A stretch of 64,000 bases of DNA from Aequorivita vladivostokensis (GTDB lineage Bacteria > Bacteroidota > Bacteroidia > Flavobacteriales > Flavobacteriaceae): positions 310,001-374,000 of the forward strand of contig NZ_JSVU01000004.1 in assembly GCF_000952855.1 (NCBI RefSeq). The letters are read 5' to 3'. The notes under the pieces were generated by a model, which worked only from the letters and a program-made list of their open reading frames with translations, was not told the DNA's origin and ran no database searches. This document shows, in pieces, positions 36,198 to 55,849 of this stretch. Position numbers and translations under genes: made by a program. The stretch's first letter is position 1. Each line of letters opens with the position of its first letter.

Positions 36198-36301
36198 TTT
36201 TTTTCGATGCGCTCCTAGGGTTGCTTACTTGGGACAAACTTATCGCCCAATACACTTAACCTAAAACAAAAAAACCAGCCTAATTAAAGACTGGCTTGTT
36301 T

Positions 36302-36349
36302 TGCTCCTCCTCTTGGGCTCGAACCAAGGACCCTCTGATTAACAGTCAG
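36302..36349. repeat. Left attachment repeat (attL), 48 bp
   Basis: The sequence is identical to 55774-55821 and corresponds to the 3' half of tRNA-Asn from the anticodon stem to past the acceptor end. It is not a complete tRNA here: the flanking base at 36350 diverges from the tRNA. Confidence 0.92.
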
Positions 36350-36653: not shown

Positions 36654-37013
36654 TTAAAAAGGCAAGTCATTATCTGGTTCATCCAAAAAACTTACTGGTT
36701 CTATTTCTGTAGGGCTATCTACTATTGGTTCTTGACCATTTAACAGCTCTATTCTCCATCCTTGAATGGAATTAAAGTATTTTGGCACACCTTCAGGATT
36801 TATCCATTCCCTGCCTCTAAAATTGACGCTAATTTTCACATCCTGACCTACTGCATACCTATCCAGCAACTCACATTTGTCTTGGGTGAATTCTATTAAA
36901 ATATGTTGGGGGAATTGTTCTTCAGTAGTGATTACTACTTCACGCTTTCTAAAGCCATTATCACCTATATTTTGGGTGTCATTCAACACTTTTATTTTAC
37001 CTGTTATTTCCAT
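36654..37013 (-). CDS. DUF3127 protein, SSB-like OB-fold
   Basis: This 119-aa protein matches DUF3127, an OB-fold family in Bacteroidota: MEITGKIKVLNDTQNIGDNGFRKRE, FTQDKCELLDRYAVGQDV and VNFRGREW. It ends EPDNDLPF, an acidic tip like that of canonical SSB, which binds repair and replication partners. A ssDNA-binding role in the element is therefore plausible but inferred. It starts 4 bp after the preceding gene and is the last gene of a five-gene minus-strand operon. Confidence 0.8.
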   Translation of the reverse strand: MEITGKIKVLNDTQNIGDNGFRKREVVITTEEQFPQHILIEFTQDKCELLDRYAVGQDVKISVNFRGREWINPEGVPKYFNSIQGWRIELLNGQEPIVDSPTEIEPVSFLDEPDNDLPF

Positions 37014-39143: not shown

Positions 39144-39578
39144 TTACATTAACCCATTATCAGCAAAACTGAAATAATCACCTCTTGTAATTATTAAATG
39201 GTCCAAAAGTTCAATTTCAAGGAATTGACCAGCTTTTTTAATCTTGTAGGTAATATTTTTATCAGAGTTACTTGGATTAAGATTTCCACTTGGATGATTG
39301 TGGGCAACAATTATGTTACTAGCATTGCATTTTAAAGCAACTGCGAATACTAATTTTACATCGACAATTGTTCCGGATATACCTCCTTTGGACATAGAAT
39401 ATACTCCCAAAACCATATTGGCTCGATTTAATAATAAAATTTTAAATTCTTCTTGCAATTCAAGCGTATCTTTACACCAAGAATTCAGCAAAATTTTAGC
39501 GGAATCATTACTGTTGCTAACTTTTAGTTTCTTTTGTTTACTGGTTGAATATGAGACACTTATTTCTGAAATTTTCAT
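39144..39578 (-). CDS. RadC-family JAB/MPN-domain protein
   Basis: This 144-aa protein has the JAMM metal motif HNHPSGNLNPSNSD near residue 95 and the RadC segment DHLIITRGDYFSFADNGLM at the C terminus. The helix-hairpin-helix N terminus of full-length RadC is absent, as is usual in RadC copies on Bacteroidota mobile elements. The catalytic target is unknown; a role in element DNA processing or anti-restriction is only a guess. Confidence 0.88.
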   Translation of the reverse strand: MKISEISVSYSTSKQKKLKVSNSNDSAKILLNSWCKDTLELQEEFKILLLNRANMVLGVYSMSKGGISGTIVDVKLVFAVALKCNASNIIVAHNHPSGNLNPSNSDKNITYKIKKAGQFLEIELLDHLIITRGDYFSFADNGLM

Positions 39579-40652: not shown

Positions 40653-42254
40653 ATGCCAACATTAAATTGGATAGGAAAGGAAAAAGTAATTAACCATCAC
40701 CAAGATGTACCCTATAAAATTTTAGAACCTCAATACACTTTTGCCAATGGCAAGGAAAGTGAAGATGCTACTTCACAAAACAAAATTATTCACGGAGATA
40801 ACCTTGAAGCTTTAAAGAGCTTGTTGCCTGAATATGAAGGTAGAATAAAATGTATCTACATAGACCCACCATACAATACAGGTAATGAAGGTTGGGTATA
40901 TAATGATAACGTAAATGACCCTAAACTTAAAAAATGGTTGGGACAAGTTGTAGGCAAGGAAAGTGAGGATTTAAGTAGACACGATAAGTGGCTCTGTATG
41001 ATGTACCCAAGGCTAAAACTACTGCATAAGTTACTCGCTGATGATGGAGCAATCTTTATTTCAATTGATGACAATGAACAAGGATTTTTAAGAATTATCT
41101 GTGATGAAATTTTTGGTGGTTCTAATTTTTTAGCAAATGTTATTTGGGAAAAAGTATATAGTCCCAGGATGGATTCAAAAGGTTTTAGTGCAAGTCACGA
41201 TTTTATAATTTCTTATCAAAAATCTCCGCTTTTTAAGGTGAGAAAACTCAAAATAGAGCAATCTGATAAACAATTTAAAAACTATGATGAAGAAAAGAAA
41301 AAATATTACAGAAGTCGATCCTTAAAAAAGGAAGGTTCAAATTCCTTGAGGACAGATAGACCAAACCTGTATTATTCACTAAAAGACCCAGATGGAAATG
41401 ATATTTTTCCATTGAAACCAAATGGTGTAGAGAGCTGTTGGCGCTGGTCTATGGAAACCTATAATAAAAATGTAGAATTGGGGAATGTAGAATGGATTAA
41501 AAAAAATGGAAAGTGGCAAGTTTATGTGAAGCAGTGGAAAGAAAAAGATCCTAAAAGACCCCCTAATACTTTATGGATTAGTAAAGAAGTTGGGCACAAT
41601 CATAGTGCTAAAGATGAGATCAAGGGGTTTCAATTAAAATCTACGTTTGACACTCCCAAACCCTCAACGTTAATAGAAAGAATTATAAGTATTTCAGCTA
41701 ATAAAAATGATATTATCCTTGATTCCTTTGCAGGTTCAGGCACAACAGCCCACGCAGTTTTAAATCTAAACAAAGAAGATGGTGGCAATAGAAAATTCAT
41801 TTTAATAGAAATGGAGGATTATGCCAATACCATTACCGCTGAAAGAGTAAAAAGAGTTATTAAAGGTTATGGTGAAGGTTCAAAAACTATTGAAGGTACT
41901 GGTGGAGATTTTACATATTATGAATTAGGCAAACCTTTATTTTTAGACAATGGTTTTTTAAATGAAGAAGTTGAACTAGATAAGATTCTAGAATATGTAT
42001 GGTATAGTGAAACCAGAGCTTCATTTAAAAAACCGAAAGAGGAATACTTGTTAGGTTCTAAAAATGATACAGCATATTATTTTCAATACCAAAAAGACAG
42101 TTTAACCACATTGGATGAAACATTTTTAAGGTCTATAAAAACTAAGGCTAGCCAGTACATTATTTATGCAGATAATTGTTTGCTTGACCAAAGTATTATG
42201 GATAAATATAATATTGTATTCAAAAAGATACCTAGAGATATAAGTAGGTTTTAA
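40653..42254 (+). CDS. mod: Type III restriction-modification methyltransferase (Mod)
   Basis: This 533-aa N6-adenine DNA methyltransferase of the beta class has the catalytic DPPY at residues 71-74 and the AdoMet motif DSFAGSGTT at 357-365, in the order typical of Mod. The opening MPTLNWIGKEKVINHHQD is characteristic of type III Mod. The variable middle should recognise the target sequence. Mod methylates one strand and forms a complex with Res. The partner res is downstream, separated by a fic gene. Confidence 0.92.
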   Translation: MPTLNWIGKEKVINHHQDVPYKILEPQYTFANGKESEDATSQNKIIHGDNLEALKSLLPEYEGRIKCIYIDPPYNTGNEGWVYNDNVNDPKLKKWLGQVVGKESEDLSRHDKWLCMMYPRLKLLHKLLADDGAIFISIDDNEQGFLRIICDEIFGGSNFLANVIWEKVYSPRMDSKGFSASHDFIISYQKSPLFKVRKLKIEQSDKQFKNYDEEKKKYYRSRSLKKEGSNSLRTDRPNLYYSLKDPDGNDIFPLKPNGVESCWRWSMETYNKNVELGNVEWIKKNGKWQVYVKQWKEKDPKRPPNTLWISKEVGHNHSAKDEIKGFQLKSTFDTPKPSTLIERIISISANKNDIILDSFAGSGTTAHAVLNLNKEDGGNRKFILIEMEDYANTITAERVKRVIKGYGEGSKTIEGTGGDFTYYELGKPLFLDNGFLNEEVELDKILEYVWYSETRASFKKPKEEYLLGSKNDTAYYFQYQKDSLTTLDETFLRSIKTKASQYIIYADNCLLDQSIMDKYNIVFKKIPRDISRF

Positions 42255-42377: not shown

Positions 42378-43442
42378 ATGAGTGAGATAAAAATACACGA
42401 ACTTCCTCCTAATACAAATTGTGAGACGGTGCCAATTTTAAAAGCACTTGCTAAGGCCAGTAGAGCTTTGGGTGAACTAAAGGGAGAGGTTAAGAAGATT
42501 CCTAATTCTCAAATTTTAATTGATACTTTATCCCTCCAAGAAGCTAAAGATAGTAACGAGATAGAAAACATTGTTACTACAGATGATGAATTATATCAAG
42601 CTGCTGTTGATGAAAATATAACTTCTGTTGCTGCTAAGGAAGCTACTAATTATGCTGATGCATTAAAGTTTGGATATAATATTATTAAAACAAAAGGAAT
42701 ATTAACTACTAATGACATTATAAAAATTCAACAAAGGATTGCACCTCATCATCCTGTAAGAAAAATTCCTGGAACGGTTTTAAAAAATCCTAGAACTGAG
42801 GAAGTAGTATTTACTCCTCCTCAAAACATCAAGGAGATAAACAATCTTTTGAATAATTTAGAAATCTATATAAACACCCCTGAATTCCATAATATTGATT
42901 GTTTAATAAAAATGCCCATCATCCATTTTCAATTTGAAAGCATCCATCCATTTTATGACGGCAATGGAAGAACAGGAAGAATATTGAATATGCTTTATTT
43001 GGTACAACAAAACTTGTTGGATATTCCCGTGTTATATTTAAGTAGCTATATAATAAGGAATAAGAATGATTATTATAGATTGTTACAAGAGGTAAGAACA
43101 AAGAGTTCTTGGGAAGAATGGATTATATGGATGCTTGTTGGAGTCGAGAAAACAGCTTTGGAAACTATTAAAGTGGTAAATAAAATTAAAATTTTAATGG
43201 ATGATTATAAAAATGAGATTAGAACAAATTTTAGTTTTTACAGCCACGACTTAATCAACATCATTTTTAAACATCCATATACAAAAATTGATTTTTTAGA
43301 AAGAGAGTTGGGAGTACACAGAAATACCGCTAGTAGTTATTTAAATACACTTGCAAGACACGGTTTATTAACCAAGGTTAAAATTGGCAAAAGAAATTAT
43401 TACATAAATCAAAAGCTTTTCAATATTCTAACCAAAAGATAA
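42378..43442 (+). CDS. Fic-family AMP-transferase-like protein
   Basis: This 354-aa protein has the complete Fic motif HPFYDGNGRTGR at residues 190-201, so it should transfer AMP or another nucleotide moiety to protein hydroxyls. A self-inhibitory motif of the (S/T)xxxE(G/N) type lies at S59-N64 (SNEIEN), which places it among class II Fic proteins with an N-terminal inhibitory helix. The C-terminal 80 residues look like a winged-helix domain (DFLERELGVHRNTASSYLNTLARHG). It sits between mod and res, 14 bp before res, so it is probably part of the restriction operon. Confidence 0.92.
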   Translation: MSEIKIHELPPNTNCETVPILKALAKASRALGELKGEVKKIPNSQILIDTLSLQEAKDSNEIENIVTTDDELYQAAVDENITSVAAKEATNYADALKFGYNIIKTKGILTTNDIIKIQQRIAPHHPVRKIPGTVLKNPRTEEVVFTPPQNIKEINNLLNNLEIYINTPEFHNIDCLIKMPIIHFQFESIHPFYDGNGRTGRILNMLYLVQQNLLDIPVLYLSSYIIRNKNDYYRLLQEVRTKSSWEEWIIWMLVGVEKTALETIKVVNKIKILMDDYKNEIRTNFSFYSHDLINIIFKHPYTKIDFLERELGVHRNTASSYLNTLARHGLLTKVKIGKRNYYINQKLFNILTKR

Positions 43443-43456
43443 CAGTATTAATATTT

Positions 43457-46135
43457 ATGGAATTAAAACCATATCAACATAGAGTTATAAAAGATTTAGA
43501 ACATTTCTTATTATATATACAAAAAGAGCCTACACCCTCAAAAGCATTTAATCAGTATTGGGAAGATAAATTAGGAATTCCATATACCCCCCAGTTAGAT
43601 GGTTCTTTTACAGGAATGAAACCCTACAAAGATAATATACCCAATGCAGTTCATATTGCAATAAAAGTACCTACTGCTGGCGGTAAGACCTTTATAGCTT
43701 GTAATGCTCTACATACTATAAATAAACAGTTCAATCAAGGAAATACAAAAGCAGTAGTTTGGCTAGTGCCTTGGTCTAATTTGTTGCAACAAACAGTTAA
43801 TAACCTATCTAACCCTAGCCATCCCTACAGGGAAAAATTAAATAGTTTATTTGGAAACAGAGTTGAGGTTTATGAAAAAGACCAGTTGTTACAAGGTGCT
43901 AATTTTAACCCTACTTCAGTAACAGAACAACTCAATATTTTTGTATTTAATTTCAGCAGTTTACGTATTAATTCGAGGAAAAAAGAGGACAGAAAAGTAT
44001 TCCAAGAAAATGGAGCTCTAGAGAGTTTTAGAAACACGATTGTTTCAAAAGACCTAGTACTGCCAGATACAGATGAAACAGCCTTAATCAATGTAATAAG
44101 AAGCTTGAATCCTATTGTAATTGTAGATGAAAGCCATAACGCAGAAAGTGATTTAAGCGTTGAAATGCTTAGAAATCTAAATCCATCTTTGGTACTTGAT
44201 TTAACTGCTACTCCCAAAGAAAACAGCAACATTATTTCTTTTGTAAATGCACTTGCACTTAAAAAGGAAAATATGGTTAAACTTCCTGTGGTAGTTTATA
44301 ATCACCATAAAAAAGAAGAAGTAATCACTAGTGCTTTGCACCTTCAAAGACAATTGGAGTTGCTGGCTATTGAGGAAGAAAAGCTGACTGGAAAATACAT
44401 TGGACCAATCATATTATTTCAAGCCCAATCAAACATTAAAGGAAAGGACAATACTACATTTCAAAAGATAAAAGAGCAATTAGTTAAGCTTCAAATTCCA
44501 GAGGAACAAATCAAGATTAAAACAAGTGGGATTGATGAGTTAAAAGGTATAGACCTAATGGCCAAAGGCTGCCCAGTTAAATACATTATTACAGTAAATG
44601 CCTTAAAAGAAGGTTGGGATTGTCCTAATGCCTATATATTAGCCTCCTTAGCTGATAAATCTTCTGCTGTTGAGGTAGAGCAGATTTTGGGTAGGGTATT
44701 AAGACAGCCCTATGTTGTTAAACATAAGGAAGCACTTTTGAATATGTCTTTTGTTTTGACAGCTTCCTCAAAATTCAATGAGACTTTAGATAGCATAGTA
44801 AAAGGATTACAAGAATCTGGTTTCAGTAAAGATGATTATTATGCAGAAGAAGCTCCAGAAGAAGAACTAACACCAAATGAAATTTTAAATCAAGATTTGT
44901 TTTCAGAACCTAAACCAGATGATTATGTGCAATCTGATGAAGATTTTGATATTAATAAAGTTGAGTTTAATCCAAACGAAGAAGTAACCTTAGAAACTAT
45001 TAAACAGCAAAATACTATAGTTTCACACATAACAGAAAAAGCAAAAGTTGAGGGGCAAACTTTTGAGCAAAAGGTTGATGAACTTGAAATTGATGATACT
45101 ACTTCCATTTTTACAGATATTATGAAAACTTCACCAAAAATCTATAGAATAGATGCTCAATTTAAAGAAGTAGCAAATGCTATCCAATTACCTCAGTTCT
45201 TTAAAAAAGTTGAGGAAAGCCAACTGGAAGAGGTTAGTTTGTTTGAAGAATTAAATTCTGAAGACCTCTACTTAAATAAGGTGAGTTTGTTGGATGGTTT
45301 TAAACTTTCAAATTACAGCACACAAATAACTTTTGATGAGATTTCCAAGGAAATATATGCAGTAGATTTTAATGAGCAAAAGAAGACTGCCACTGCCCAA
45401 AAAGTGAGCAAAAGAGCTAAAGATATTCTAGTTGATACTATTCTTTCCAAACCTAAAGAATCTCAAGTAAATCAAATCAGTAGCATCATTGTTTCCAAGC
45501 TTGGAGATATGACACCAATTTCCCAACAAGAACTCCAAAAATATGTGAGCAGAGTTTTTGACGACTTATCCAGTGAGCAAATTAGGGATATTGTAGATAA
45601 TGATTTTATCTATGTAAAAAAGATTAGGGACAAAATAAATGACTTGACCAATGAATACGCTAAAGAACGCTTTAAAATACTAATAGATAGCAACAAGATA
45701 ATTGTAAAAGAGAACTATTCATTTCCAGATTCTTTATCATTTTTAAACCCTAGCACTACCATTGCCAAATCCTTATATGACAGGGAAGGCAGTATGAATA
45801 ATTATGAGCAAAATATGATTATGGAAGTGGCTTCACTTGATAACATAGTGTTTTGGCATAGAAACCTTGAAAGAGGAAAAGGTTTTGCTTTAAATGGTTT
45901 TAGCTCCAATCATTATCCTGATTTTATTCTACACACTAAGAAAGGGAATATTATCCTGTTAGAAACCAAAGGAGATGTTTTTGATAATGATGATAGTAAG
46001 AACAAGAATATTTTAGGTAAAACTTGGGCTGAAAAAGCAGGAGATAATTTTAAATACTTTATGGTGTTTGAATCTAAACAGGTTGAGAATACATATACAG
46101 CTAGAAGTGTGATTGAAGTTCTTAGGGGATTATAA
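43457..46135 (+). CDS. res: Type III restriction enzyme, helicase-nuclease subunit (Res)
   Basis: This 892-aa protein has Walker A VPTAGGKT (residues 71-78), motif II DESH (224-227), TATPKE and the helicase motif QILGRVLRQPY. A C-terminal PD-(D/E)XK nuclease follows: PD at 821-822, then E836-T-K838. This is the full type III Res layout: ATP-driven translocation, then cleavage beside the recognition site. MELKPYQHRVIKDLEHFL is the normal N terminus. It is convergent with the large nuclease-like gene, 27 bp between stops. Confidence 0.93.
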   Translation: MELKPYQHRVIKDLEHFLLYIQKEPTPSKAFNQYWEDKLGIPYTPQLDGSFTGMKPYKDNIPNAVHIAIKVPTAGGKTFIACNALHTINKQFNQGNTKAVVWLVPWSNLLQQTVNNLSNPSHPYREKLNSLFGNRVEVYEKDQLLQGANFNPTSVTEQLNIFVFNFSSLRINSRKKEDRKVFQENGALESFRNTIVSKDLVLPDTDETALINVIRSLNPIVIVDESHNAESDLSVEMLRNLNPSLVLDLTATPKENSNIISFVNALALKKENMVKLPVVVYNHHKKEEVITSALHLQRQLELLAIEEEKLTGKYIGPIILFQAQSNIKGKDNTTFQKIKEQLVKLQIPEEQIKIKTSGIDELKGIDLMAKGCPVKYIITVNALKEGWDCPNAYILASLADKSSAVEVEQILGRVLRQPYVVKHKEALLNMSFVLTASSKFNETLDSIVKGLQESGFSKDDYYAEEAPEEELTPNEILNQDLFSEPKPDDYVQSDEDFDINKVEFNPNEEVTLETIKQQNTIVSHITEKAKVEGQTFEQKVDELEIDDTTSIFTDIMKTSPKIYRIDAQFKEVANAIQLPQFFKKVEESQLEEVSLFEELNSEDLYLNKVSLLDGFKLSNYSTQITFDEISKEIYAVDFNEQKKTATAQKVSKRAKDILVDTILSKPKESQVNQISSIIVSKLGDMTPISQQELQKYVSRVFDDLSSEQIRDIVDNDFIYVKKIRDKINDLTNEYAKERFKILIDSNKIIVKENYSFPDSLSFLNPSTTIAKSLYDREGSMNNYEQNMIMEVASLDNIVFWHRNLERGKGFALNGFSSNHYPDFILHTKKGNIILLETKGDVFDNDDSKNKNILGKTWAEKAGDNFKYFMVFESKQVENTYTARSVIEVLRGL

Positions 46136-46162: not shown

Positions 46163-49100
46163 TTAAGAATTTATCTTTCTTTTTAAGACTTCTAAAACAG
46201 GTGGATTTTCAATATTTTCAGGGATAACTACTTCATCTCCTTTTCTAATAATCACACAATCCATATCATTCAATGAAATTTCCCAAGCATTTTTAATGAT
46301 TAATTCTTTTTTCTCAATTCCTCTAGTTAAGTCAGGTGTAAATTGCCCCTTACTATCTATATAGGCAGGATATAGAGTATAAGAACTGTCTCTGGTATAA
46401 TAATTAATAAGATTATCAAGATTTTTTGAATCTATTGCATTTAACTCGTGAAATCTAGATGAAACCACAGATACTTCACCTTCTTTTATTGGATTAGTAA
46501 AATTACTAGAAACATGAACCCTGTACCAATGGGGGTTTCCTTTATTTACCCCTTTTATAATAGCAATTCTAATTTTATCCTTTTCATCAATCTCACCGAT
46601 GTCTTTCCTCCATGCATCAAATATTTTCTTACCTGACTCAAAATTTTCAAACAATATAGTTAAGCCTAACTTATGATTTCTATCAATAAAAAAACCAAAA
46701 GCTCTCCATTTAGCCTCATCCCATAAATGACTATCAACTATTGAATGTACTTTTCTCTTATTATGTGGGATATTTTTAAAATCTTTTTCCTTTCTAGGAC
46801 TTTCTTCTTCTTCAATATTAAATTCCTTAATATCCAAATTCATTGGTTCTTTTCTAATATTGTCATAGGTCTTATGTTTCTTTTCTTTATACCAATCCTC
46901 AAAGAATAATTTTGGGTCATTTCCATAAAAATCTAACGCAAAAGAGTTATGATTAAAAGCTAAAGAAACTCTATGATAAACTTCTTCTTTTTCAAAAATA
47001 TTTTTTAAAAACTCCTTAGAGTCATCTATCATAAAATTTTTTGACATTATAGTAGCTATAAAAAATAGAATGTTTTTCCATAACTCATCTCTAAACTTCA
47101 ATTTGAAAAAATTAGTGCTATTAAGTTCTAACAAAAACTCATTTGATTGTTCTTGCGGTACAATATTTAGAGTTTCAACTTTCTGATTTTCATTTAATCT
47201 GATTATAATTTTTTCTGATATTGGAACGACATTATCAAATGATGTAGAAAAAAACCCTTCTAGAATAGCTAATAATGCTTCAGAAATCAAAAATAAATCT
47301 TTCTGTTTTGTAAATATAATCTCTATTTCAGCACCTAAAATTATTGTCTTAAATGTTATTTCATTTTCATTAATAAAATCTGTTTCATATAAAAATTGAT
47401 TTTTTATTGGTTGACTTATTATATTTGACATAAATTCCTTTAATTTTTCTTCTCCAAATTCTTCATTATCTACAGACTCAATAACTTTCTTAGTATGACC
47501 TAAAATATATAATAAAGTATCAGAAGAAATTTCTAGCCCCACAGACTCAAAAATATTTGGCGCTATTTTAAATTCTTTCGAAGAATACTCAGAATTTAAT
47601 ATTCTGTTGGATAACGAAATATCTATAAAAGAAAGAGTATTGTCTCTTTCTTCATCTAAATTAATCTCCACCTGTTTCTCTAGAACATTTATTAATTCAC
47701 ACACAGATAATATGGAGGGGATTCTGCCCAAAAGAATTTCATTTTTTGCTAAATCAATTGATATGTCATAAGTTTTCTTATTAACATATCCTTCTTTAAA
47801 CCAAGTCTTTAAGGACATTGCTGAAGCAAACAATAGACAGTTATGAGATGCCCATAAAAGCCCTAAATTTCTATAAGAATTAGATAGGAGTCGAAGGCTT
47901 AATATTAAAAGTTGTTCGCTCTCTTCTTTAGATAATTTGACGATTACCTTACCTAAAAAAACTACAGCATCTTTATACAGGCCCGCATCAAATTTATTAA
48001 TTGCTCTTCTAATAAAAGTATCACTTGCTGCTAATTCTGAATTTCGCTTTTCATTAATTATAGCGAGGCTCTCTATTAAATTATCATATTCTTTACTTTC
48101 GGGAAAAAGCTTTCCAAAAATCATAATAGATTTATAGGTAGAATCAAAAGGGTAACTTAAATGTCCACCTGCACTACATACTATTTCATCTAATTTTGAA
48201 AATATTGTTTCACAATCCTTTTCTTCATCTAAATAATCATAGATTAATGAAATATTATATAGAGTTTTAGCAGTTAATGCCAAGGTAAGATGATTTTTAT
48301 CTTTTGAGGCTATTTCTAAAAGAGTATGGAAAGTTTTCTTTTCGTTTTTAAAGTTTACTGTTTCGTGGAGTTCTTCTTTATGTGTTTTTAATATTGTAAA
48401 TAATGTACTATATAATTTTATTGAATTAATATTTGCATCACTATTGACAAGTTCTTTTACATATAAATAGTTCTCAACAAATACCTCTAAATCATTAAAC
48501 CAAAAAATCGAGGTCCAAGCTTGTTGGTAATATATCCTACAAAGTTGATTTTTATTATTAAGCTTTTTTGCAAATCTTAAAGCTCTTAAAAATTTCCCAT
48601 CAATTACTTCTCTTGAATCCTCTATCTCTCTAGACAGAATAGCACTTTGCAAACAATCTTCGATAAGTTGATAATCTATTTCAAAATACCTCTTAGGGTT
48701 TAATATACCTAACTCCAAATCTTCAATCAATTTTCTTCTTTCAGTATCATTTGCTCCTTGAAGAATCTGCTTTTCTTTATAAACATCTGATAAACCTAAT
48801 GAATCAACAACGACTTGTATTAAATCATTATTTATTATCTTTTCAATAATCCACTCACCATCAAGTATAGTAATATCTATATTGAATTCCTCTTTAAATT
48901 TATCTTGTGCATCCTTTTTTTTCTTACTAGAAATTTTACGATTACTAATAAAAAATATTTTGGTATATCCTCTTTTAGTGGATAGAATACTTTTAATATC
49001 ACTTCTTAATTTACCCCTCCAATCTTCTTTACTAGATATAGCAAATGCCCAATTTTCATCTTTTTTCCAGCCATTATCAGGAACATACCACTTATTAGAA

Positions 49101-49387
49101 ATTTCTTCAGAAACAGGATGTGTTTCGGTATCTGTTTTTCCATCACCACCTCCAGTTGGACCTACTTGAGGAATTAAATTTGGCGCAATAAATTTCTCAG
49201 CCAGTTTCCTTGCTAAGGATTCAAATTGGTCTTGTTTCTGATTTACAGATATGTTTTCTATTTCATAGGCTAATACTTCTTTAGATAGTTTTACCTTATA
49301 TACAGTCTCAGAATCTGAAAAGTATTCAGGTCTCAGGTTTTTATAAAAATCCCTTGGAGTTTTTAAATCAAAGTCTTCATTTTCCAT
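46163..49387 (-). CDS. Large protein with Mrr-like nuclease signature and helical-repeat body
   Basis: This 1074-aa protein has no family I can name. Residues 53-130 look like an Mrr/PD-(D/E)XK domain: QFESLARKLAEKFI, then GPTGGGDGKTDTE (D82 and D86 in the G-G-x-D-x-x-x-D pattern), then FAISSKEDWRGK, where SSK (118-120) takes the place of the QAK/EVK strand. Residues about 215-600 are helical with TPR-like spacing. The C-terminal 200 residues form a mixed domain (AFGFFIDRNHKLGLTILFENF and NPHWYRVHVSSNF). No Walker A is present. Adjacent to a type III restriction system, it is a candidate defence nuclease. Confidence 0.75.
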   Translation of the reverse strand: MENEDFDLKTPRDFYKNLRPEYFSDSETVYKVKLSKEVLAYEIENISVNQKQDQFESLARKLAEKFIAPNLIPQVGPTGGGDGKTDTETHPVSEEISNKWYVPDNGWKKDENWAFAISSKEDWRGKLRSDIKSILSTKRGYTKIFFISNRKISSKKKKDAQDKFKEEFNIDITILDGEWIIEKIINNDLIQVVVDSLGLSDVYKEKQILQGANDTERRKLIEDLELGILNPKRYFEIDYQLIEDCLQSAILSREIEDSREVIDGKFLRALRFAKKLNNKNQLCRIYYQQAWTSIFWFNDLEVFVENYLYVKELVNSDANINSIKLYSTLFTILKTHKEELHETVNFKNEKKTFHTLLEIASKDKNHLTLALTAKTLYNISLIYDYLDEEKDCETIFSKLDEIVCSAGGHLSYPFDSTYKSIMIFGKLFPESKEYDNLIESLAIINEKRNSELAASDTFIRRAINKFDAGLYKDAVVFLGKVIVKLSKEESEQLLILSLRLLSNSYRNLGLLWASHNCLLFASAMSLKTWFKEGYVNKKTYDISIDLAKNEILLGRIPSILSVCELINVLEKQVEINLDEERDNTLSFIDISLSNRILNSEYSSKEFKIAPNIFESVGLEISSDTLLYILGHTKKVIESVDNEEFGEEKLKEFMSNIISQPIKNQFLYETDFINENEITFKTIILGAEIEIIFTKQKDLFLISEALLAILEGFFSTSFDNVVPISEKIIIRLNENQKVETLNIVPQEQSNEFLLELNSTNFFKLKFRDELWKNILFFIATIMSKNFMIDDSKEFLKNIFEKEEVYHRVSLAFNHNSFALDFYGNDPKLFFEDWYKEKKHKTYDNIRKEPMNLDIKEFNIEEEESPRKEKDFKNIPHNKRKVHSIVDSHLWDEAKWRAFGFFIDRNHKLGLTILFENFESGKKIFDAWRKDIGEIDEKDKIRIAIIKGVNKGNPHWYRVHVSSNFTNPIKEGEVSVVSSRFHELNAIDSKNLDNLINYYTRDSSYTLYPAYIDSKGQFTPDLTRGIEKKELIIKNAWEISLNDMDCVIIRKGDEVVIPENIENPPVLEVLKRKINS

Positions 49388-49429
49388 TCAGAAGTAATAA
49401 TTATCATGAAAGAGAAAGTTACTAAAAAT

Positions 49430-49457
49430 AACCCAACTCCTAATGAAAGAAGTTGGG
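49430..49457 (-). terminator. Terminator of the DUF3871 gene
   Basis: ACCCAACT (49430-49437) pairs with AGTTGGGT (49450-49457) and is followed on the minus strand by TTATTTTT. It lies directly beyond the stop of the gene at 49464 and upstream of the large nuclease-like gene. Confidence 0.75.
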
Positions 49458-49463
49458 TGTCAT

Positions 49464-50495
49464 TCAACTCAAAAACCAAGAGTAATTACTATCACCCTCA
49501 ATTGCCTTTGAGAGACCTTCAGCAAATGTGAAGGCATTCTCATTCCTTTCCAGGAATGTATCAATGTAGGAACTCTTATTGGCTCCCGTGAAAAGATTAT
49601 AGACATTCCACATAGAAATATCTCCATCTTTATTTCTGCAAAAGCTTTCATCTTCGTAAAAGTCCTTTGCTATTGTATTAAAATGGCTATCTGTAAGCAA
49701 TAGCTCTGGCAATTTTGCTTTTTCAGCCTTTGGCAAATATTGAAATAATTTTGCCCTACCTATCAATTTTGCAAATTGGCTTTCAGACATTCTCTGCTTC
49801 TCAAATTTTGTCATATATGTCAATTGCTTGTCAATGTTATAACCTTCAACTAATTCAATAATATTGTTGTTCAAAACCTCAACACTATCTGCTTTCATCT
49901 CACTACTAAAACCATCTGTTGAAATACAAAGGTTACAGCAAACCATATTTTGAAACCCAATAAAGAACTTGAACTTTTCAGGACTTTTTTTACTATACAA
50001 ATTTTCTTGATTGTAAGCTCTTACACCTCCAATAGTCAATTCCAGCTCATTTCCCCCAATATTGGAAGTTATGGATGGCACTCTTGCTATCCAAGCCATT
50101 CTTTCATAATATGTGGTCTTTTGATGGTCCTGCAATTCAGATATTGGTAGTTGAAGCGCATCTGGTGTCCTTCCCTTGATTTGATGACTAATTCTAATTT
50201 CGGGTTTGCTGAGGTTTGTTCCCAAAACATTTGCAACACTGGCCATAGCAGATTCAATAAACTGACTGTGGCTAATTGTGATTTCATTGTCCTTGCTGAA
50301 CACTGGTATTACACAATCTTCCTTTAAATGTGAGAGGCTAACACTTTTCGTATTAGCCTCTATAAAAGGGTTCTTTTTATATCCTTTATTTTCTGAAGGT
50401 AGTTCTAAATCTGGTGCATTTTGTTGCTGACCTTCATTAAAATAAATATCTCTATTGTTCTGCCTATTGTGCTGTGCTACTGGTGTGATTTCCAT
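49464..50495 (-). CDS. DUF3871 family protein
   Basis: This 343-aa protein matches DUF3871, a family found on Bacteroidota plasmids and integrative elements. It has a variable N terminus, then SQFIESAMASVANVLGT...PEIRISHQIKGRTPDAL, IGGVRAYNQENLY and MWNVYNLFTGANKSSYIDTFLERNENAF. The biochemical role is unknown; the last segment resembles conserved regions of proteins dealing with antirestriction or plasmid maintenance. Its start overlaps the Sak4-like gene by 32 bp, so the two are co-expressed. Confidence 0.82.
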   Translation of the reverse strand: MEITPVAQHNRQNNRDIYFNEGQQQNAPDLELPSENKGYKKNPFIEANTKSVSLSHLKEDCVIPVFSKDNEITISHSQFIESAMASVANVLGTNLSKPEIRISHQIKGRTPDALQLPISELQDHQKTTYYERMAWIARVPSITSNIGGNELELTIGGVRAYNQENLYSKKSPEKFKFFIGFQNMVCCNLCISTDGFSSEMKADSVEVLNNNIIELVEGYNIDKQLTYMTKFEKQRMSESQFAKLIGRAKLFQYLPKAEKAKLPELLLTDSHFNTIAKDFYEDESFCRNKDGDISMWNVYNLFTGANKSSYIDTFLERNENAFTFAEGLSKAIEGDSNYSWFLS

Positions 50496-51330
50496 TTTGT
50501 GAAAAGTTTTTTGGGTTAATTAATTTTTCCAATTGTTCCTTTTTGGCTAGGTATTCAGTCTTTAATGGCAACTGAAAACTTGGATGTTCTTTGTACAGCT
50601 CCATCAACTGACCTACAGATAAACATTCTTCTATTCTTTGCTTCACATCCTGCTCTTTTATAGGAGATGTGCACCATTCTAAAATCCGTTTCCCTGTTGC
50701 TGTACTTATCAAGAATTCTGGTCTGCCAGAAAACAGATTGGTTCTGTCCTTGCTTGCAGTTGCAAAATGTTTGATGTCTAAGTCAAAAACAATGGTAAAT
50801 TCATAGGAAACATCATCCCTTTGCACTGCTTTAAGTCCTACTTTTTCTGGCACAAATTTTCCATCCTTTTGTTGCAATACATAATCCTGTTTTGTTCTCA
50901 TTGTAGCTATAATGTGGGCATCAGCCTGTAGAATCTTATTGATGAATGCTTTTTGTCTTGGGGTTACCTTATTCCAGTTTGCAAAGGAATTGCCGGGTAA
51001 CTTTGAATGGAAATCCAAAAGCTCATCCCACACTTGGGAAATGGAATCCAAAATTATTACTTCCATTCCCGCCTTTTCACAAACCTCAATAGCCTCAATA
51101 TATTTTTCTGGTGTGAAAGGTGGTTGAAGTTGTAATACATTGTAATTACCTAAATGGGCATAAAGGTCAGCTGAGCCATTTTCTGTATCTATTACAGCGA
51201 CTTTAGCCAAATTATCATTAGTTAGTCCTTTAGCAAGTAAAAGGGAACTTAAACTTTTTCCACAGCCTGAGGAGCCTTGTAAAGCCATTTTAATTTTGGC
51301 TTGTTTTCTTTCTGATTGTCGTAATTGCAT
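50464..51330 (-). CDS. Sak4-like RecA-fold ATPase
   Basis: This 288-aa AAA/RecA-fold ATPase has Walker A GSSGCGKS (residues 19-26) and Walker B VIILDSIS. VIDTENGSADLYAH and the HIIATMRTKQDYVL and GLKAVQRDDVSYEF segments match the phage Sak4 group of recombinases/annealases. It probably assists homologous strand annealing or replication of the element with an ssDNA-binding partner, perhaps the DUF3127 protein. It overlaps the DUF3871 gene by 32 bp. Confidence 0.83.
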   Translation of the reverse strand: MQLRQSERKQAKIKMALQGSSGCGKSLSSLLLAKGLTNDNLAKVAVIDTENGSADLYAHLGNYNVLQLQPPFTPEKYIEAIEVCEKAGMEVIILDSISQVWDELLDFHSKLPGNSFANWNKVTPRQKAFINKILQADAHIIATMRTKQDYVLQQKDGKFVPEKVGLKAVQRDDVSYEFTIVFDLDIKHFATASKDRTNLFSGRPEFLISTATGKRILEWCTSPIKEQDVKQRIEECLSVGQLMELYKEHPSFQLPLKTEYLAKKEQLEKLINPKNFSQNGNHTSSTAQ

Positions 51331-51440: not shown

Positions 51441-52673
51441 TTATGATGCATATTTCAGTATGGGTTCTTCCAAGAGCTTTGACATAGCATCGTCAATAAC
51501 AGTATCTTCAAATTCTTTCAAATATGAATTCGTAACACTTACATCACTATGCCCCATTGATTGCCCAATTAAATCTGAAGATATTCCTGCAAACTTCAAA
51601 TTTGTAGCATAACTATGGCGAATAACATATGAAGTAACATTTTGTTTTACACCTTGGATTTTCGCAATCTCCTTGAGTTGCTTGTTAAATTTTCGCAAGG
51701 TTTTATGCTTCCTATTTTCTACTTGCATTGGGGTGAGGTTTTCTTTTAATAAAATTGGAAATACATATCCTGTAGGTCTCTTTTGAGATTGATAATAAGA
51801 AATTATCTTTTTAACTGGTTCAGCCATCTTTACAGTAAATCTACCTTTGGTTTTTGAACGAATATATAAAATTCTATCCCCCTGAATATTATCCCATTTA
51901 AGCTTCATCATATCAATGAAATTCATTCCACCCATATAATAGCTGAATATCATATAGTTTTTAGTATCAACTAGATGAGGATATTTCTCTGTATCAAGTG
52001 CTTCCATCAACTTCATTTCATCTCTGGAAATTGCTTTCTTAATTCCTTTGCCTTTTAGCTTGGAGACTTTGTAGACCTTAAATGGATAATACTTTTCATC
52101 TACTATTCCTTTTTTGATTGCATCATTGTAGAGCGCCCTGATTTCTCGCATTTTTAGACCAATTCCACCATCTGTATTTTGTTTACTACGTAAATAGGTT
52201 TCATACTTATCAAGTAGGGAAGGGGTAATTTCCCTAAATACCAAACTCTTATTTTTTTGAAATTTAAAAAATGAAGTATATACATCCTTATAGGCTCTGG
52301 CATTTCCAGTTCTTCCAGCCTCATTTAAATCTGAAATCTTTTCCTTCCAAAATTCTGAAACTGTAATTTTTGATGATTTTTTCCCTCTGAATTTTTCTTC
52401 AAACTGGTTTAGAGTAAAATCAATATTTTCTAATTGAAATTCTGTTATAATTGCTAGTGCTTTTTCCCTTTGTTTAAGCAGAACCCTATTCCTTTGAATA
52501 TAATTTTTTTCGGTTTTTTTGAATTGCCCCGAATCTTTATCCCAATTGCTTTTTAAACATTCAAGACCTAATGTGATTACTTTAATTTTTCTATCCTTAA
52601 TAACCTTTAAAACCACTGGATATAAGCCTTTTTTGTTTGCTTTGTTCCTCAATATTATATTTATGCTTGCCAT
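51441..52673 (-). CDS. Tyrosine recombinase/integrase of the element
   Basis: This 410-aa protein has an N-terminal arm-binding domain (RNKANKKGLYPVVLKVIKDRK), a SAM-like core-binding domain (about residues 105-190) and a C-terminal catalytic domain. The catalytic residues seen are R352 in VIRHSYAT, H375 in GHSD and nucleophile Y384, with a lysine in RSKTKG. The first catalytic arginine is replaced: the box reads GGMNFIDMMKLKW with N251, and the usual box II histidine is Y, features shared with many Bacteroidota integrases. It should catalyse integration into and excision from tRNA-Asn. It lies next to the excisionase side of the element. Confidence 0.93.
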   Translation of the reverse strand: MASINIILRNKANKKGLYPVVLKVIKDRKIKVITLGLECLKSNWDKDSGQFKKTEKNYIQRNRVLLKQREKALAIITEFQLENIDFTLNQFEEKFRGKKSSKITVSEFWKEKISDLNEAGRTGNARAYKDVYTSFFKFQKNKSLVFREITPSLLDKYETYLRSKQNTDGGIGLKMREIRALYNDAIKKGIVDEKYYPFKVYKVSKLKGKGIKKAISRDEMKLMEALDTEKYPHLVDTKNYMIFSYYMGGMNFIDMMKLKWDNIQGDRILYIRSKTKGRFTVKMAEPVKKIISYYQSQKRPTGYVFPILLKENLTPMQVENRKHKTLRKFNKQLKEIAKIQGVKQNVTSYVIRHSYATNLKFAGISSDLIGQSMGHSDVSVTNSYLKEFEDTVIDDAMSKLLEEPILKYAS

Positions 52674-55763: not shown

Positions 55764-55773
55764 GTATTCATTC

Positions 55774-55821
55774 TGCTCCTCCTCTTGGGCTCGAACCAAG
55801 GACCCTCTGATTAACAGTCAG
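55774..55821. repeat. Right attachment repeat (attR), 48 bp
   Basis: The sequence is identical to 36302-36349. It covers the 3' part of the intact tRNA-Asn gene and stops in the anticodon stem. The 5' part of the tRNA (55822-55849) belongs to the chromosome only. Confidence 0.92.
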
Positions 55822-55849
55822 ATGCTCTAACCAACTGAGCTAAGGAGGA
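55776..55849 (-). tRNA. tRNA-Asn (anticodon GUU)
   Basis: The minus strand gives a 74-nt cloverleaf. The acceptor TCCTCCT/AGGAGGA is perfect with discriminator G. The D stem is GCTC/GAGC, the anticodon stem TCTGA/TCAGA with loop CTGTTAA and anticodon GTT, and the T stem CTTGG/CCAAG with loop TTCGAGC. It is the integration target; its 3' 46 bases are rebuilt by the element's repeat. Confidence 0.96.

Follow-up and report, generated by a model that had tools for sequence, protein, structure and literature searches.

Among the STAND proteins (signal transduction ATPases with numerous domains), exchangeable effectors such as TIR, SIR2 and Mrr_cat are joined to a nucleoside triphosphatase (NTPase) with repeats, as described in PMC9122126. 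Avs4 carries an N-terminal nuclease and a STAND NTPase and has more than 1500 residues. HamA of the Hachiman system forms a gene family of its own and is partnered by a helicase, according to PMC12278908. Here we describe P0001, a protein of only 1074 residues in which no STAND NTPase was found. It is encoded in a stretch of 64,000 nucleotides from Aequorivita vladivostokensis (contig NZ_JSVU01000004.1, positions 310,001 to 374,000), hereafter called the window. With a probability of roughly 0.6, we consider P0001 to be a horizontally moving defence effector, a nuclease acting as one protein.

The minus strand of the window from 46163 to 49387 is a single unbroken open reading frame (ORF) of 1074 codons, and frame 1 of the plus strand shows stops throughout this region. 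Of 495 stretches matched in a scan of species genomes that started from 12 members (the window protein, one congener, nine plasmid matches and one phage-labelled record), 228 encode relatives (a lower bound, the search having relied on two peptide patterns), and the best 80 loci were retained. Since 76 of these 80 contain complete ORFs of similar length (1049-1139 aa; three others reach the contig end and one has 561 aa) and several residues do not vary at all among the 78 aligned sequences, the ORF goes beyond chance. The GGDGKTD motif, the SSKEDWRGK segment, the long helical middle and the distinct C-terminal domain, to which a first-pass annotation of the window had drawn attention, are all present in the sequence and in the AlphaFold2 (AF2) model. 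The parts of the gene are as follows.

46163..49387, minus strand: P0001 gene, coding for the predicted nuclease-solenoid protein of 1074 aa; one intact ORF
48788..49288, minus strand: predicted PD-(D/E)XK nuclease-fold domain, residues 34-200
49130..49144, minus strand: D82-x-K-x-D86 motif (in GGDGKTD); D82 and D86 in 78/78 sequences, K84 and E88 in 77/78
49010..49036, minus strand: S118-x-K120 ... K126 segment (SSKEDWRGK, residues 118-126), from conservation in the alignment
47396..48754, minus strand: TPR-like alpha-solenoid, residues 212-664
46883..47362, minus strand: mixed alpha/beta region, residues 676-835, from AF2
46166..46762, minus strand: C-terminal alpha/beta domain, residues 876-1074, from AF2

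Foldseek and VIA searches with the full model returned match lists dominated by solenoids, and the N domain (residues 1-219) was therefore modelled separately. Structure comparison of this model listed Avs4, AspBHI, MspJI, FokI, PaqCI, Can2, SduA, HamAB chain A and BamHI. As this list is restriction-endonuclease-like, the fold proposed in the first-pass annotation survives. The alpha-beta-beta-beta-alpha-beta core of the PD-(D/E)XK superfamily is present in the model, and D82 and D86 supply the acidic residues of the beta hairpin. The (D/E/Q)-x-K position of the next strand is occupied by S118-x-K120, with Ser in all 78 sequences and Lys in 72 of them. The alignment comprises the window protein and 77 of the 80 loci (the partial L038, L067 and L081 were omitted, as were the likewise partial L013 and L014). 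Besides D82, D86 and S118, the residues W123, K126, D130, R139 and W179 are identical throughout, and E111 is kept in 72/78. In the model, the N terminus of P0001 is a PD-(D/E)XK nuclease fold of the Avs4 kind. The conserved residues suggest a likely catalytic scheme of D86 (with E88 or D82) and K120, cleavage itself being predicted. In view of its six exceptions, K120 is not supported as an invariant residue. A role of K126 is worth consideration because this residue is invariant and is kept in two shorter relatives, too.

Some of these features would also fit a catalytically dead nuclease fold that binds DNA or provides a scaffold in the regulation or maintenance of mobile elements. The invariant Ser in front of the Lys and the loss of K120 in 6/78 sequences point in this direction, and certain homologues adjoin ParA/ParB-type genes. 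We nevertheless regard this explanation as improbable, given that D82 and D86 are never exchanged and that K84 and E88 are kept across many phyla. In addition, the ratio of nonsynonymous to synonymous substitution rates (dN/dS) argues against it. In nine close pairs, selected by us and in part having a sequence in common, this ratio was 0.10-0.29 for the whole gene and 0.05-0.21 for the first 210 codons, with the lower value in the first 210 codons in 9/9 pairs.

Residues 212-664 are entirely helical in the AF2 model. A Walker A pattern was found in 0/78 aligned sequences. In Pfam searches the window protein matched no NTPase family, and none is among the 25 listed of the 34 families matched by 45 relatives. 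With neither a Walker A, an NTPase family nor anything other than helices in residues 212-664, the P-loop NTPase module of STAND proteins is missing from P0001. The layout with an N-terminal effector and C-terminal repeats, which defines Avs/STAND proteins as well, is present. The profile of the C-terminal domain matched 3 of 395 genomes of the phylum, namely two full-length members and one frame of 366 aa with a stop. In this sample the domain is found only together with the P0001 family. Its sole match among solved structures was a designed TPR protein, which is no believable relative.

Such a C-terminal part might read modified or non-self DNA, which the nuclease would cut directly with no phage protein being sensed, so that P0001 would be a modification-dependent (type IV-like) restriction enzyme. 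Long TPR-like solenoids, however, are typical of protein recognition, and the C-terminal profile offers no believable solved relative in favour of this idea, although this excludes nothing. We consider such an enzyme unlikely, yet a better candidate than the dead nuclease fold.

No library searched contains a model for this family. The window protein matched no family in Pfam (at E 1), PADLOC (at 0.1) or PHROGs (at 0.1) and had one sub-threshold match in NCBIfam (0.033). Among the 25 listed of the 34 Pfam families matched by the 45 relatives, no model hit more than two members (best E 0.0036). The same relatives gave a single PADLOC match at 0.0072 and three single NCBIfam matches at 0.005-0.008. 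Against the PDB, phmmer with the window protein found nothing at E 1. Apart from two designed helical proteins (0.012), the only match of an hmmsearch with the family profile was a competence-related protein (E 1.5). The N-terminal profile had one chance match (0.064) among solved structures. We met no prior mention of the family in the literature covered, and accession numbers of five relatives returned 0 papers; supplementary tables of recent screens lie outside this coverage, and a relative may be contained in those of DefensePredictor.

The P0001 gene lies in an element of 19.5 kb that is flanked by 51-nt direct repeats, one of them overlapping a tRNA gene:

36299..36349, no strand: left attachment (att) repeat, 51 nt, 98% identical to 55771-55821; junction in G018 and G005
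36654..37013, minus strand: DUF3127 gene at the left island end (PF11325 4.2e-30)
39144..39578, minus strand: RadC-like island gene (PF04002 4e-39)
40653..42254, plus strand: type III methyltransferase (mod), neighbouring cargo (PADLOC MTase_III 1.6e-209)
42378..43442, plus strand: SoFic-like Fic protein between mod and res
43457..46135, plus strand: type III restriction subunit (res)
49464..50495, minus strand: DUF3871 protein, island core (PF12987 1.8e-129)
50464..51330, minus strand: AAA_24 ATPase, Sak4-like, island core (PF13479 2.6e-17; phrog_1366 2e-73; phrog_124 1.3e-9)
51441..52673, minus strand: tyrosine integrase of the island (PF00589 8.6e-17)
55771..55821, no strand: right att repeat, overlapping tRNA-Asn at 55775-55849

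The G+C content in 2-kb windows is 0.27-0.35 within the island, 0.36-0.38 over its borders and 0.39-0.45 outside. Empty sites exist in two congeners (G018 and G005), where the flanks are contiguous and the alignments overlap by 48 and 51 nt. Repeats, tRNA-Asn, G+C content and empty sites confirm the mobile element already suspected in the first-pass annotation and now delimit it. The AAA_24/DUF3871 gene order is repeated in two islands of G019 and in G011, where further genes follow (L172). DUF3871 occurs in 4/28 genomes of the genus, one of them having a frame of 59 aa. The two G019 islands have the same layout as the window island. One (L171) carries a SIR2-domain protein, a ResIII helicase and an N6/N4 methylase, the other (L169) a UvrD-like helicase, unassigned genes and an Eco57I-type enzyme. 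As both scanned sister islands carry defence-type cargo in this slot, P0001 occupies a slot for cargo of the defence type. The homologue of G019 itself (L170) lies outside these islands. The Aequorivita islands resemble a family with a constant frame (integrase/AAA_24/DUF3871 at one end, RadC/DUF3127 at the other) and exchangeable cargo in between.

Between the DUF3871 gene, which lies upstream on the same strand, and P0001, a hairpin resembling a terminator followed by a T-rich stretch was recognised by eye (49388-49463). P0001 may therefore be a separate transcription unit.

The mobility of the gene follows not only from the island and the empty sites but also from plasmid copies and from two Aequorivita copies in separate clades. 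The window copy clusters with Chryseobacterium polytrichastri (support 100), the second Aequorivita copy (L048) with Tamlana and further Bacteroidota (support 100). The genus has thus either acquired the gene at least twice or retained distinct copies. A tree built by a quick method without bootstrap from 79 sequences (the window protein and 78 of the 80 loci) spans 15 phylum-level groups and requires 8 changes for Bacteroidota and 6 for Pseudomonadota, numbers possibly inflated by binning errors of metagenome contigs. Homologues were found on 15 of 72,556 plasmid records. Prevalence was 2/59 among relatives and 5/249 among genomes of the taxonomic family, two of the latter matching the solenoid only; all prevalence samples include the window's own genome. 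Each of 35 carrier genomes has one match. One stop lies inside the match in three of these 35 rows; the corresponding ORFs are open and this stop is taken to be the terminal one.

In E. coli, 26/5,426 complete genomes match. In 23 of them the match spans at least 80% of the gene, in another 33%, and in the remaining two 56 nt; every match has at least 99% identity and is chromosomal. An E. coli copy has the accession WP_135805009.1. One copy is flanked by prophage tail-fibre genes and a partial integrase on one side and by pao genes on the other. Its protein shows 28% identity to the window protein over 1099 columns (E 8e-128). Among the 23 copies, two (H31, H42) contain an insertion sequence inside the match and four (H32, H45, H46, H47) are annotated as two proteins.

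An origin as a phage gene was considered and rejected: the gene occurs in one of 50,697 phage records, which is unverified, and five relatives are among 66 candidate viral-contig stretches. The record deposited as unverified bacteriophage (L012) encodes a full-length homologue; by eye, its other ORFs resemble a Bacteroidales mobile element.

The surroundings of the homologues are mobile and often rich in defence genes, and no fixed housekeeping context was seen. Eleven of the 15 plasmid records were annotated (H5, H7, H14 and H15 were left out). Within this incomplete annotation, and with defence-type being our own judgement, clear defence-type genes were detected at 5/11 loci:

L003: NACHT and AbiEii
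L005: SMEK
L009: S8 peptidase with ATPase
L010: DUF1837 and helicase
L014: S8 with ATPase, and SAVED

Kinase, transposon, HipA or HNH genes make three further loci (L007, L008, L011) ambiguous, and L004 has a distant toxin-antitoxin gene only.

In two distant lineages, a HamA/DUF1837 gene and a helicase directly follow the homologue on the same strand:

L170, 7124-14692: homologue-HamA-helicase arrangement (the same copy as L048)
L010, 7947-15024: homologue-HamA-helicase arrangement

In the window itself, P0001 and res are convergent, as noted in the first-pass annotation, with 27 nt between them. Both arrangements would suit an accessory of a neighbouring system, namely type III restriction-modification here and Hachiman elsewhere. 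The 35 carrier genomes, searched with profile hidden Markov models (HMMs), argue against such an accessory. HamA is present in 4/35 and adjoins the homologue in one (G343, i.e. L048). The MTase_III model PDLC03644 (E 1e-20) matches 5/35, always on a contig other than that of the homologue, so that it adjoins in 0/35 and the suggested link to the type III system is incidental. Neither gene is a needed partner, and these searches reduced the already small odds of the accessory role, which we now consider highly improbable. The window protein itself gave no HamA match, and a DUF1837 gene adjoins the homologue in 1/11 annotated plasmid loci. The 1157 neighbour ORFs at 91 loci form no cluster covering more than 7 loci. 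Single-sequence tblastn over 100 loci revealed no constant partner, either, with a sensitivity so low that two HamA genes miss each other. The lack of a fixed partner gene favours a protein that works alone.

Several observations speak against P0001 as a defence nuclease. Foldseek with the N domain found no match under E 0.001 (best 3.6e-3), and the D82/D86 loop is modelled at a predicted local distance difference test (pLDDT) value of about 50. Glu or Gln is usual at the position where the family has S118. In five of the six sequences lacking K120 a Lys follows one position later; the E. coli copy has Arg (then Lys) there and Gln in place of E88. The context has weak points, too. At E 1e-15 or better, PADLOC matched 205 families in 139 neighbour ORFs and 11 in 124 control ORFs, a contrast that speaks for a defence context but counts families and does not give enrichment by gene. 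(At 20 of the 80 loci, ORFs up to 4.5 kb away were taken as neighbours, 139 of 161 being submitted; controls came from the same contigs, 124 of 146.) Overlapping type I restriction models make up most of the 25 listed of these 205 families, and certain models were also matched by control ORFs. The most frequently hit family accounts for 4/139 neighbour and 2/124 control ORFs. As far as the incomplete annotation shows, two of the plasmid loci, L006 and L013 (a truncated relative), lack a clear defence gene within 8 kb.

In a defence protein of the kind we favour, the solenoid and the C-terminal part would bind an infection cue and keep the nuclease idle until this cue arrives. The cue would be a phage protein or else DNA with an abnormal end or structure. 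The triggered nuclease would then cut DNA, halting the phage or killing the infected cell. P0001 would work in the manner of Avs4 or of another STAND sensor whose N terminus is a nuclease, minus the ATP-driven oligomerisation module. The presumed sensor role is the weakest step. The sensor-nuclease of the first-pass annotation keeps its nuclease-like fold and its mobile, defence-related context and loses Mrr_cat, the invariance of K120 and the type III link. More tentatively, the family might consist of solo immune sensors spanning phyla that do without a STAND NTPase. Their TPR-like solenoid, together with a C-terminal module that has a new fold, would recognise the invader and directly unleash an Avs4-like nuclease, and they would travel as cassette cargo of tRNA-borne islands. 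If P0001 acts in defence, it adds a widespread family missed by the model libraries searched and raises the question how a nuclease-repeat sensor stays off and switches on without an ATPase. With copies in 23/5,426 complete E. coli genomes, this question is approachable in ordinary laboratory strains.

The N-domain profile matched five of the 395 phylum genomes: two full-length members, one frame of 73 aa and two proteins of a shorter architecture. The latter, L176 (717 aa, E 1.3e-10) and L177 (683 aa, E 3.8e-9), are open frames matching profile positions of about 114-201. By eye, both keep K126 and have Arg at the K120 position. In L176, Pfam TPRs are clear (7.8e-23), and Mrr_cat stays below its cut-off, scoring 16.0 of the 21 bits needed (E 0.014). 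The two exhibit the nuclease-TPR pairing within a shorter protein, the Pfam scan covering L176. Judged from their sequences, they look like a bridge from Mrr-like nucleases to the P0001 family.

P0001 and the Mrr-like endonucleases, as generally known, have in common the order of a helix, a G-x-D-x-G-x-D-like motif and xK, with Ser replacing Gln in P0001. Membership in the Mrr group, as initially proposed, was not borne out: Mrr_cat (PF04471) did not match the window protein at E 1 and is not among the 25 listed of the 34 families of the 45 relatives. The hhalign probabilities with Mrr_cat are weak, with 0.7% for three classic-type domains, 35% for four STAND-type and 38% for eight mixed ones, the grouping being ours and the alignments covering 33-34 columns only. 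MspJI and AspBHI carry the nuclease domain in the C-terminal part of a chain less than half the size of P0001 and have no solenoid. The gene for HamA of Hachiman is absent from 31/35 genomes carrying the P0001 family. With the STAND proteins described in PMC9122126, P0001 shares the N-terminal effector and the repeats behind it, whereas the intervening NTPase is missing. Unlike Avs4 (AVAST type 4), it has an alpha/beta C-terminal part of its own and matches no PADLOC model. The parts of P0001 are of known kinds; none of the libraries searched contains them combined in this way, with no NTPase and with a C-terminal domain specific to the protein.
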